The translations under genes were made by a program, and so were the position numbers. The notes beneath the pieces were generated by a model. It saw only the letters and a program-made list of their open reading frames with translations. It was not told where the DNA came from and made no database searches. 64,000 nucleotides of DNA from Pseudomonas viridiflava (GTDB taxonomy: Bacteria; Pseudomonadota; Gammaproteobacteria; Pseudomonadales; Pseudomonadaceae), in the NCBI RefSeq assembly GCF_900580675.1, contig NZ_UTBG01000001.1, positions 124,001 through 188,000 of the forward strand, read 5' to 3'. Every line of letters starts with the position of its first letter. The stretch's first letter is position 1. Below, in pieces: positions 1 through 52,628 of the stretch.

Positions 1-367
1 CGGCCAAGCCATGTCGGTTGCCGATGCGGTGCTGGTGGTGGTGCAGCCGGATGTGGCGTCGTTCAGCACTCTGGACCAGATGGACAGCCTGCTCGCGCCG
101 TACCTGCAACGCGAAAAACCGCCGCAACGCCTCTACGTGATCAACCAATTGGACGCTGCGCACCGCTTCAGCCTGGACATGGCCGACGTGTTCAAGGCGC
201 GCCTCGGTAGCGCCCTGCTGGGCACGGTCCACCGCGACTCGGCGTTCAGCGAAGCCCAAGCCTACGGGCGTGATCCCCTCGACCCTACCGTCAACAGTAT
301 CGGCTGCCAGGACGTCCACGCCCTGTGCCGCGCCTTGCTCGAACGAATCGACTCGGACCTTCCATGA
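1..367 (+). CDS. wssA: WssA, MinD/BcsQ-like protein (C-terminal part)
   Basis: Only the last ~120 codons are in the window; the frame is open from base 2. The visible part aligns along its whole length with the C-terminal half of WssJ at the other end of the operon (shared stretches such as SVAD.VLV, STLDQ/GTLDQ, LDMA..F..RLG, VHRD and DPLD). It is the C-terminal part of a ParA/MinD-type ATPase fold, as in BcsQ of other cellulose operons, which is linked to placing cellulose synthase at the cell pole. The P-loop lies outside the window. Its TGA stop overlaps the wssB start (ATGA), so it is translationally coupled and belongs to the same operon. Confidence 0.85.
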   Translation, partial: GQAMSVADAVLVVVQPDVASFSTLDQMDSLLAPYLQREKPPQRLYVINQLDAAHRFSLDMADVFKARLGSALLGTVHRDSAFSEAQAYGRDPLDPTVNSIGCQDVHALCRALLERIDSDLP

Positions 368-46746: not shown

Positions 46747-47185
46747 GCACGGCTCCGAAGGCAAAGATGCGCTGCATTCTACCCCTGAAGACGACCCAAG
46801 GCCGAAGCTATTGCCCAGGGTCATGGGGTCATTGGCGATTGTCGGCCTGATGGTGGGTTTGATGATCGGCCGCCTGACCACCCCCGACCCGGTCGAGCTG
46901 CAGCAGGTAGAGACCGCTGCGGACGGCGTGGTGGTGTGGTTCAACAGTGAACCCAAGCTGCACGGCGAGCATATCGACGGCACCGTGGCGCTGCTGTTCG
47001 ACGCGCAAGGCAAGGCCGCCGGCGGGCAACTCAAGGTAAATGACAAGGACGTGAACTGGCGCATCCGCAAGACCGATGGCGGCTTGCTGCTGAACCTGGT
47101 GGCGGCTCGGCCATTGCGTGGGGAGTGGAAGGGCGAGGAGGCTGATGGCCGCTGGCGGCTGGAGATCCATCTCCAAGAGCAATAA
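46745..47185 (+). CDS. Conserved hypothetical membrane-anchored protein
   Basis: A 146-residue protein with one membrane helix (about residues 27-45) and a C-terminal globular part (VVVWFNSEPKLHGEHIDGTVALLF..., ending RWRLEIHLQEQ). No family recognised. Gene order (secB, trmL, this gene, sRNA, ntrC) matches the region in P. aeruginosa as I recall it. Its start codon shares two bases with the divergent trmL start. Confidence 0.75.
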   Translation: MHGSEGKDALHSTPEDDPRPKLLPRVMGSLAIVGLMVGLMIGRLTTPDPVELQQVETAADGVVVWFNSEPKLHGEHIDGTVALLFDAQGKAAGGQLKVNDKDVNWRIRKTDGGLLLNLVAARPLRGEWKGEEADGRWRLEIHLQEQ

Positions 47186-47480
47186 AAGAGGGAATCCCCG
47201 GCCTGCCTGTACCAAGGTCCCCAAAACGGGCTGGGGCTATGCGCGCTGTGCCGCATAAGCCCCGGTGTAAAGAAGGGAGTTCCCGGCCTGCCTGTACCAG
47301 GGCTCCCAAAACGGGGTGAAGCTGCAATGAGCTTCGGTATTAAAGAGGGAGTCCCCGGCCTGCCTGTACCGGGGTTCCCCAAAGCGGTGTGGAGCGCGAC
47401 GCGGTTCGCATCAAGCACTCCGGGTGTAAAGAGGGGATTCTCGGCCTGCCTGTACCAAGGTCCCCGAAACTGGGTAGTAC
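47180..47480 (-). ncRNA. nrsZ: NrsZ-type nitrogen-regulated sRNA with four tandem hairpin modules
   Basis: Between ntrC and the membrane-protein gene are four copies of a ~46-base module at 47185-47230, 47269-47316, 47342-47388 and 47428-47472. On the leftward strand each folds into an outer stem GGGRR/YYCCC and an inner stem such as CCCCGG/CCGGGG, with paired changes between copies, around the invariant loop UACAGGCAGG, then a UCUUU run. The modules are joined by three unrelated hairpins. A sigma-54-type promoter lies directly upstream (47490-47505). Position next to ntrC, promoter class and modular repeats match NrsZ of P. aeruginosa, a processed, NtrBC/RpoN-dependent sRNA; exact ends are estimates. 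Confidence 0.8.
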
Positions 47481-47804: not shown

Positions 47805-49241
47805 TCAGCCCTCATCACCCTCATCGTCATCCCCACCATCCACCTTCATGCCCAGCTCCTTGATCTTGCGCGTCAAGGTATTGCGGCCCCAACCCAGCAG
47901 CACGGCGGCGTCGCGGCGGCGGCCGGCGGTGTGCTTCAGGGCGGTTTCGATCATGATCCGCTCGAACGCCGGCACGGCGCTGTCCAGCAGGTTGGACTGG
48001 CCGCGTGCCAGGGCCTGGTCGGCCCACTGGCGCAGCGCCTGCTCCCAGTTGGTCACCGGTGCCGAATCCTGCGGCAGGCTCAGCAGCTCTGGCGGCAGGT
48101 CGCTGATATGCACTTCGCGGCCGGACGCCATCACGGTGATCCAGCGGCAAGTGTTCTCCAGCTGGCGCACGTTGCCGGGCCACGGCAGGTTCTTCAGGTA
48201 TTCCTCGGTCTCGCTTTTCAGCAGCTTCGGCTCGACGGCCAGCTCCTGGGCGGCGCGGCTGAGGAAGTGGCGGGCGAGGGTCGGGATGTCTTCGCGACGG
48301 TCCGACATACGTGGGATGTGGATGCGGATCACGTTCAGACGATGGAACAAGTCTTCACGGAATTTGCCCGCATGCACCAGGGTTTCGAGGTTCTGGTGGG
48401 TCGCGGCGATGATACGCACGTCGACCTTGACCGGCGTGTGCCCGCCGACGCGGTAGAACTCGCCGTCTGCCAGTACGCGCAGCAAGCGGGTTTGGGTGTC
48501 CGCCGGCATGTCGCCGATTTCATCGAGGAACAGCGTGCCGCCGTCGGCCTGTTCAAAGCGCCCGCGACGCAGGTTGGCCGCGCCGGTGAACGCGCCTTTC
48601 TCGTGGCCGAACAGCTCGGACTCCATCAGGTCTTTCGGAATCGCCGCCATGTTCAACGCAATGAACGGCGACGCCGCCCGTGGGCTGTGGCGGTGCAGGG
48701 CGTGGGCGACCAGCTCTTTACCGGTACCCGACTCGCCGTTGATCAGCACGGTGATGTTGGAGTGGCTCAAGCGCCCGATGGCGCGAAACACTTCCTGCAT
48801 CGCCGGCGCTTCGCCGATGATTTCCGGGGTGCGGGTCAGGACCGGCGGGGCTTCCTGGTTCTGTTGTTCCTGGGCGTGCTGGTTGGCACGCTTGACCAGC
48901 GCCACCGCCTCGTCCACGTCGAACGGCTTGGGCAGGTACTCAAAAGCACCGCCCTGGTAGGACGCGACAGCGCTGTCCAGGTCCGAGTGCGCGGTCATGA
49001 TGATCACCGGCAGGCGCGGGTGCTGCTCGCGAATCCGCGCCAGCAAGTCCAGGCCACTGGCGCCGGGCATGCGGATATCGGAAATGATCACGTCAGGCTG
49101 CTGACGTGCCAGGCGGCTCATCACCCCGTCGGCGCTGTCGAAGCTCTGGGTGGTCATGCCTTCCTGTTGCAAGGCTTTCTCGAGGACCCAGCGGATAGAA
49201 CGGTCGTCATCGACGATCCAGACAGTTTCACTACGGCTCAT
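47805..49241 (-). CDS. ntrC: Nitrogen regulation response regulator NtrC (GlnG)
   Basis: A 478-residue sigma-54 activator. It has a receiver domain with the phospho-acceptor aspartate in IISDIRMPG (residue 55), an AAA+ domain with Walker A GESGTGKE and the sigma-54 contact GAFTGA, and a C-terminal Fis-type helix-turn-helix (DAAVLLGWGRNTLTRKIKELG). It activates nitrogen-scavenging genes when phosphorylated by NtrB. The start overlaps the ntrB stop by four bases. Confidence 0.97.
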   Translation of the reverse strand: MSRSETVWIVDDDRSIRWVLEKALQQEGMTTQSFDSADGVMSRLARQQPDVIISDIRMPGASGLDLLARIREQHPRLPVIIMTAHSDLDSAVASYQGGAFEYLPKPFDVDEAVALVKRANQHAQEQQNQEAPPVLTRTPEIIGEAPAMQEVFRAIGRLSHSNITVLINGESGTGKELVAHALHRHSPRAASPFIALNMAAIPKDLMESELFGHEKGAFTGAANLRRGRFEQADGGTLFLDEIGDMPADTQTRLLRVLADGEFYRVGGHTPVKVDVRIIAATHQNLETLVHAGKFREDLFHRLNVIRIHIPRMSDRREDIPTLARHFLSRAAQELAVEPKLLKSETEEYLKNLPWPGNVRQLENTCRWITVMASGREVHISDLPPELLSLPQDSAPVTNWEQALRQWADQALARGQSNLLDSAVPAFERIMIETALKHTAGRRRDAAVLLGWGRNTLTRKIKELGMKVDGGDDDEGDEG

Positions 49242-51918: not shown

Positions 51919-51930
51919 TGAAAATCTCCC

Positions 51931-52020
51931 TGTGGGAGCGGGCTTGCTCGCGAATGCGGTGTGTCAGTTGATGCATCTGTTGACTGACACACTGCATTCG
52001 CGAGCAAGCCCGCTCCCACA
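51931..52020. repeat. REPIN directly upstream of the chorismate mutase gene
   Basis: Two inverted units of the TGTGGGAGCGGGCTTGCTCG type. One edge touches the Shine-Dalgarno sequence of the chorismate mutase gene (AGGGAG on the leftward strand, 51926-51931), so this element lies in the 5' untranslated region rather than at a 3' end. Confidence 0.9.
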
Positions 52021-52159
52021 TTTTCGATTGGGTTTGCAGATTAGGACCTGCTTCAGCTGCAGGCTACCTCAACTTGCGTGCTTGCCTACAGGTAGGCCAG
52101 AATCCGCCGGCTTGTACGGCTGGCTTGTCGTCTCTATGGTTGCTCGGTCGCTGCTCATC

Positions 52160-52348
52160 AGCGATCAGGTTTAGTAGCCTGATGGTTAAGTTAAGTCGTA
52201 CCACTCCGACCTCTATGGCGGCTGTGCGTAGGGCATCTTCGGGTGCGCCGGCTTTTGCTTAACTTCCCCGGTCTACTAACCTGCGCCCAGCTGCCACCCT
52301 ATCGTTTAGTAGCGAGTCGATGGCGGCCTCATTCGAGGAAGTTAAGAC
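52160..52348 (+). promoter_or_regulatory. Structured mRNA leader of the DUF6124 gene, predicted two-state switch
   Basis: The leader has motif A (GGTTTAGTAGCC, 52168-52179), B (AAGTTAAG, 52188-52195), a UUCG-capped hairpin (52233-52246), B' (CTTAACTTCC, 52258-52267), A' (GGTCTACTAACC, 52270-52281), then a second A core (TTTAGTAG, 52305-52312) and a second B (GGAAGTTAAG, 52337-52346) containing the Shine-Dalgarno GAGGA. B'-A' can pair in nested order with the upstream A-B or with the downstream A-B, but not both; the second pairing hides the ribosome-binding site. Seen directly as complementarity; the switch is inference. Confidence 0.6.
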
Positions 52349-52597: not shown

Positions 52598-52628
52598 AAA
52601 AAAAGACCTCCCGAAGGAGGTCTTTTTT
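52598..52628. terminator. Bidirectional intrinsic terminator (DUF6124 gene / glnA)
   Basis: AAAAAGACCTCC-cgaa-GGAGGTCTTTTTT hairpin with A and T runs on both sides, between the convergent DUF6124 gene and glnA. Confidence 0.92.

Follow-up and report, generated by a model that had tools for sequence, protein, structure and literature searches.

A putative C4 antisense RNA module with both target sites in the leader of a chromosomal DUF6124 gene of Pseudomonas

Introduction

The c4 RNA of phage P1 is described as a trans-acting RNA that represses Ant synthesis (PMC8546580). PMC5320573 deals with the cleavage of this RNA by RNase P and with what its two pairing segments, a' and b', do, and P1 and P7 are described as heteroimmune (PMC12197685). 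In the P1 genome (AF234172), which we used as a yardstick, C4 is found at 48337-48422 with 68.8 bits. It is preceded by a1 (TTGACAG) and b1 (GTTAGTG), contains b' and a' (CTGTCAA), and is followed directly by a2 (TTGACAG) and then by b2 (GTTAGTGA) before an ATG. Related RNAs are also reported from chromosomes: the multi-copy Group 1 C4-like sRNAs of Acinetobacter baumannii are the own finding of PMC5320573, where their processing is seen in RNA-seq and where the presence of C4 in Pseudomonadales is stated with reference to Weinberg 2010. A link of C4 to DUF6124 or DUF3077 genes was not found in the literature searched, i.e., open-licence papers, mostly at the level of title and abstract.

Here, we study a stretch of 64,000 nucleotides from Pseudomonas viridiflava (assembly GCF_900580675.1, contig NZ_UTBG01000001.1, positions 124,001 to 188,000), referred to as the window. 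The leader of a DUF6124 gene in this window had been read, from the sequence alone, as a two-state RNA switch with segments in the order A-B-B'-A'-A-B, for which no described riboswitch class was known. This reading is called the original prediction below.

Results and discussion

The leader belongs to the C4 family

Judged from its sequence, the leader of this chromosomal gene falls into a known class, the C4 antisense RNA modules, and includes the two target sites, see Table 1. The module is located on the chromosome between a chorismate-mutase-type (CM_2) gene and glnA. In an Rfam scan of the window only NrsZ, C4 (RF01695), tRNA and c4-a1b1 (RF03163) reached gathering, and no riboswitch family did. 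The c4-a1b1 motif has 21 matches in the source genome, and the one in the window is among the only five above gathering. The reading as a novel riboswitch was dropped because the element matches both C4 and c4-a1b1 above gathering. P1 has the same anatomy, and the word riboswitch would also imply a ligand, of which there was no sign. The NrsZ (nitrogen-regulated small RNA) hits are two adjacent full-length matches on the minus strand, 47156-47318 and 47330-47476, and form a tandem pair.

The original prediction had read the pattern correctly, while its interpretation is partly supported. Every segment that it named is present at its place, both in the sequence and in the predicted fold: the first A is presented in a hairpin loop, the UUCG hairpin separates B from B', and the second B is complementary to B' over ten bases and contains the Shine-Dalgarno sequence, overlapping the ribosome-binding site of the DUF6124 gene. 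The extent of the leader, given as 52160-52348, has to be revised, as it would be longer and start near 52147, a position set by the promoter-like pair. Upstream of the module, at 51929-52021, GTGGGAGCGGGCTTGCTCGCGAATGCGG and its complement form a long inverted repeat that may be REP-like.

Table 1. Features of the module and its surroundings in window coordinates.
Feature	Position	Strand	Basis and remarks
Promoter-like pair TTGTAC-17 nt-TATGGT	52112..52140	+	Before the leader; pattern TTGnnn-16..18-TAnnnT
c4-a1b1 motif, upstream target of C4	52134..52185	+	Rfam RF03163, 49.6 bits, gathering 46.7
a1 (A) TTAGTAG, in the loop of ATCAGG/CCTGAT	52171..52177	+	Sequence; complementary to a'
b1 (B) AAGTTAAG	52188..52195	+	Sequence; complementary to b'
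C4 antisense RNA, three stems	52211..52301	+	Rfam RF01695, 71.6 bits, gathering 45; predicted fold
UUCG hairpin of C4, GCATC-TTCG-GGTGC	52233..52246	+	Sequence and predicted fold; between b1 and b'
b' (B') CTTAACTTCC, hairpin loop of C4	52258..52267	+	Ten Watson-Crick pairs with b2
a' (A') CTACTAA, single-stranded in C4	52273..52279	+	Seven Watson-Crick pairs with a1, also with a2
a2 (second A) TTAGTAG, just behind C4	52306..52312	+	Sequence
b2 (second B) GGAAGTTAAG, holds Shine-Dalgarno	52337..52346	+	Sequence; ends two bases before ATG 52349
DUF6124 gene, 79 aa	52349..52588	+	ORF; Pfam PF19619, 76.5 bits, cut-off 27
Terminator-like hairpin GACCTCC-CGAA-GGAGGTC, A and T runs flanking	52598..52628	+	Read by eye; between DUF6124 gene and glnA

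The promoter pattern, which was picked after inspection of the sequences, occurs in the 120 nt upstream region of 19/23 C4 loci of the source genome and 76/79 related C4 loci (see below), against a background in other sequence windows of 14/397 (3.5%) and 49/3,385 (1.4%), respectively. A generic sigma-70 scan reported no promoter, the pair in Table 1 included. Similarly, the hairpin behind the gene was not among the matches of a terminator scan; being terminator-like, it would close the transcription unit ahead of glnA.

Differently coded C4 copies in the source genome

The source genome (6.06 Mb, 255 contigs) contains 23 C4 matches above gathering and 17 DUF6124 genes. By coordinates, 16 of these genes lie directly behind a C4, while no C4 can be recognised within the 400 bases upstream of the 17th (L036, on contig C145). 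Other C4s stand before two DUF3077 genes (L001 and L013) and three small ORFs, and two have no clear gene behind them. The small ORFs (behind L002, L008 and L018) encode 88-97 aa without a Pfam match and are possibly a third target family. The two C4s that lack a clear gene are L021 and L003 (G000:C90:84656-84742), the latter having an a1 site and neither a2 nor b2; its a' is the same as that of L005, and its b' is a poor fit to the b2 of L005. In both DUF3077 loci, a short ORF (24 codons in L001, 21 in L013) lies between b2 and the DUF3077 gene, and its stop codon overlaps the start of that gene in the sequence ATGA, a layout reminiscent of icd-ant in P1.

The 23 loci have 16 different a' cores and 23 different b' strings. 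A Watson-Crick match of at least seven bases to a' is found upstream in 21/23 loci and downstream in 21/23; the shorter ones are upstream in L011 and L021 (seven pairs with G-U) and downstream in L003 (three) and L007 (six). For each of the four pairings, a'-a1, a'-a2, b'-b1 and b'-b2, the mean self score of the 23 loci is above all 20,000 permutations. These scores of a' and b' alone replaced duplex energies of the whole guide, which are noisy because the shared GC-rich stems dominate them (by this measure the upstream stretch of the module in the window came 22nd of 23).

When a and b are summed over both sides, the own locus is strictly first for 20 of the 23 C4s and second for L003, L012 and L023. 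Single pairings have many ties, and the own locus is strictly best for b' in 8/23 upstream and 13/23 downstream, and for a' in 7/23 and 9/23, respectively. Five loci, including the window, have the same a', CTACTAA, and here the best partner of each b' is the b2 of its own locus. The margin is wide in four of them (in the window -14.2 vs -2.6 to -8.0 kcal/mol) and narrow in L015 (-10.5 vs -9.8). As single pairings discriminate less and b' separates the CTACTAA loci, the pairing specificity seems to reside in a' and b' together.

C4 modules across Pseudomonas

The best 80 of 129 confirmed protein relatives of the DUF6124 gene product were used as related loci, and 79 of these 80 have a C4 above gathering just upstream. 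The sole exception, L109, has an inverted repeat where C4 would sit and still contains a2. In further loci, one arm of the long C4 stem is missing (L146), a1 is followed by the gene without an intervening C4 (L166), or an Rfam isrK match (65 bits, L129 2653-2728) overlaps the a1b1 motif just before C4.

The same 6-mer of the C4 core is perfectly complementary to both flanks in 99/102 loci (23 from the source genome and 79 related ones, which are related to each other and therefore not 102 independent events), whereas with the flanks of loci of other specificity this holds for 389/9,326 combinations (4.2%). With 7-mers the numbers are 89/102 and 65/9,326 (0.7%). The 6-mer misses are L003, L011 and L122. 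The earlier argument against chance, based on duplicated partners that exclude each other around a ribosome-binding site, is thereby borne out, with strong co-variation across the relatives. A parser for b' and a' did not fit 13 of the 102 C4 sequences, which were kept in the 6-mer test and left out of the following counts. Among the 89 parsed loci, a' has 26 distinct strings and b' has 57, and a Watson-Crick run of at least six joins b' to b1 in 59/89 and to b2 in 72/89, with shorter runs in the rest.

At the genome level, 110 of the 119 Pseudomonas genomes sampled contain C4. At least 20 copies are found in 46 genomes and at least 33 in 16, where the true numbers may be higher because 33 candidates were scored. 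The number of C4s follows that of DUF6124 genes (Spearman 0.88) and of DUF6124 and DUF3077 genes together (0.94), with kinship ignored in both cases. None of the 95 genomes with DUF6124 is without C4, and 14 genomes have C4 and neither DUF6124 nor DUF3077.

The codes change at fixed sites

Nine relatives (L062-L070) share the surroundings of the window. Eight have glnA behind the gene and eight have the CM_2 gene before it, as L069 is without glnA and L063 ends before the CM_2 gene. Together with those from the genus search there are 17 non-identical glnA loci, each with one of two b codes that recur across species. The code of the window, type I, is found in 11 loci, and type II, with b' TTCTACATTC, in 6 loci. 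Between the types b2 is altered along with b', keeping ten pairs in both, b1 is also altered, less perfectly, and a1, a' and a2 are unchanged. Cross-pairing is weaker, not nil: b' of type I has -10.2 kcal/mol on b2 of type II vs -14.2 on its own, and b' of type II has -6.7 on b2 of type I vs -13.2 on its own.

A flank tree was made from the gene and part of glnA of 16 sequences, L152 being left out because of its one very long branch. This tree implies four or more changes of code, and a single type II clade is rejected by the AU test (p 8e-48). The glnA-side sequence alone also gives four code changes, of which well-supported branches force only two. The pair L150 (type I) and L151 (type II) is 98.5% identical upstream, 98.2% in the gene and 97.4% downstream, vs 81.2% in the cassette, while L143 and L151, both type II, are 86.4% identical upstream and 81.3% in the gene, vs 96.8% in the cassette. 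Judging from these identities, the cassette seems to have been swapped independently of the gene behind it.

Other syntenic positions were compared as well. Four genomes (G351, G305, G246 and G233) were added, with 55 C4 matches, of which 49 were used (six of G305 were left out), and flank matching among the 72 loci of the five genomes gave 49 locus pairs in 17 groups. Among the 17 positions, 13 have b codes that are not the same in all genomes, four of these with differing a codes as well, and four positions show no change of code (the groups of L002, L009, L019 and L183). A pair with differing codes is aligned on both flanks in 7/13 groups (L012, L014, L015, L016, L020, L023 and L175); as the remaining ones are aligned on one flank only, and L186/L206 over just 455 bp at 84%, some of these groups may not be true orthologues. 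The same 6-mer matches both flanks in 69/72 loci, the misses being L003, L011 and L222, and the b matches are short or imperfect in several syntenic loci, e.g., L012, L015, L023 and L189. In many Pseudomonas chromosomes, tens of C4 modules are present with codes that vary from one to the next, and the codes differ between species even at corresponding sites.

Proposed mechanism and alternatives

We suggest, with a probability of roughly 85%, that the module is a C4 with both its target sites, and that its antisense pairing across the ribosome-binding site likely silences the translation of DUF6124. As in phage P1, transcription would begin immediately upstream of a1. By analogy with P1, RNase P would then cut C4 out of the leader as an RNA of about 77 nt, and the GG that opens the long C4 stem at 52217 fits the GGW/GG RNase P site given in PMC5320573. 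The single-stranded a' and the looped b' of the free C4 could, as the P1 example suggests, pair in trans with a2 and b2 on the mRNA of the same gene. A C4 bound to b2 would cover the Shine-Dalgarno sequence and block translation. The DUF6124 gene would then be off by default, and on only where C4 is absent or damaged, has another code or is outnumbered.

The original prediction read the leader as a two-state switch. Acting in cis, like an attenuator or riboswitch, b' and a' would pair either with a1 and b1 or with a2 and b2 on one RNA, and no small RNA would be set free. Such a leader would have matching partners on both flanks and the Shine-Dalgarno sequence inside b2, as observed, and as its codes need to match only within one molecule, it would explain their joint drift. 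We nevertheless find it improbable as the main mechanism, although some pairing in cis may take place on the nascent RNA. In the predicted minimum free energy fold of the leader (-86.1 kcal/mol), C4 remains folded and leaves a' and b' unpaired, whereas forcing a1b1 onto b'a' gives -78.3 kcal/mol and forcing b'a' onto a2b2 gives -73.7, i.e., 7.8 and 12.4 kcal/mol less stable. The pairing of b' with b2 alone, when forced, has -79.9 kcal/mol, and the C4 piece by itself is predicted to fold with -40.7. Further, the C4 scaffold is conserved as an RNA in its own right, and the C4 of P1 is described as acting in trans (PMC8546580). RNAcofold, which cannot represent loop pairing, displayed no pairing between C4 and its targets.

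It is very improbable that the antisense module is a decayed phage remnant, a C4 immunity region without present function. C4 is by the origin of its name a phage system, and a few loci have lost parts (L003, L109, L146 and L166). However, the matches are kept in nearly all of the 102 loci, and the DUF6124 gene is under purifying selection, with dN/dS of 0.05-0.29 in ten orthologue pairs. Moreover, no relative of DUF6124 was found in 50,697 phage records (E up to 0.01) or in 72,556 plasmid records (E up to 0.001), and a phage or plasmid home of the gene was rejected on this ground. Finally, inverted repeats that arose by chance and have no function are already refuted by the two Rfam matches above gathering and by the 6-mer counts.

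The predicted structure of DUF6124 is a two-helix hairpin (mean pLDDT 85). No PDB or viral fold matched the model under E 0.001; Rop-like and other helical hairpins came up only at E above 0.9 and were not used. The DUF3077 protein has no match among the phage records and matches phrog_36471, a PHROG of unknown function, with E 2.8e-16. A defence database and NCBIfam gave no match.

Significance and comparison with known systems

The class of RNA is known, while its scale and turnover in Pseudomonas look new. The C4s of this genus go with two chromosomal gene families, DUF6124 and DUF3077, and one cell has tens of differently coded antisense pairs; neither this link nor the turnover of codes was found in the papers searched. 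The turnover of codes at matching sites, with the match to the own flanks kept, is a natural experiment on the evolution of antisense specificity, and the codes form a ready-made set of candidate orthogonal translational repressors. As a tentative idea, and one that we hold to be rather doubtful, it can be imagined that up to dozens of largely orthogonal C4 switches, derived from phage immunity, form a bank that silences the small helical DUF6124 and DUF3077 proteins, and that cassettes with their codes are traded between species at fixed chromosomal sites, like immunity types. If so, a module entering a cell of another type would be expressed.

Compared with translational riboswitches and leader attenuators, the module shares the alternative pairing around the Shine-Dalgarno sequence, but differs in that its C4 scaffold is conserved and its pairing codes are variable. 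The closest system is the C4 of P1 and P7 in the c4-icd-ant operon. Both belong to the same covariance-model family and have the order a1-b1-C4(b',a')-a2-b2-start codon, with a seven-base a' that matches on both sides and a b2 located at the Shine-Dalgarno sequence. In contrast to P1 and P7, the Pseudomonas module is chromosomal, the gene behind it is DUF6124 and not icd/ant (antirepressor), and one genome contains 23 C4 copies with different codes. The Group 1 C4-like sRNAs of A. baumannii are similar in having many chromosomal copies, 21 there, with variable a' and b' (PMC5320573). The targets proposed for them in the part of that paper considered here are other bacterial RNAs or phages, with no single gene family named behind the copies, whereas the C4s of Pseudomonas have their own matching targets on the flanks and are mostly followed by DUF6124 or DUF3077 genes.
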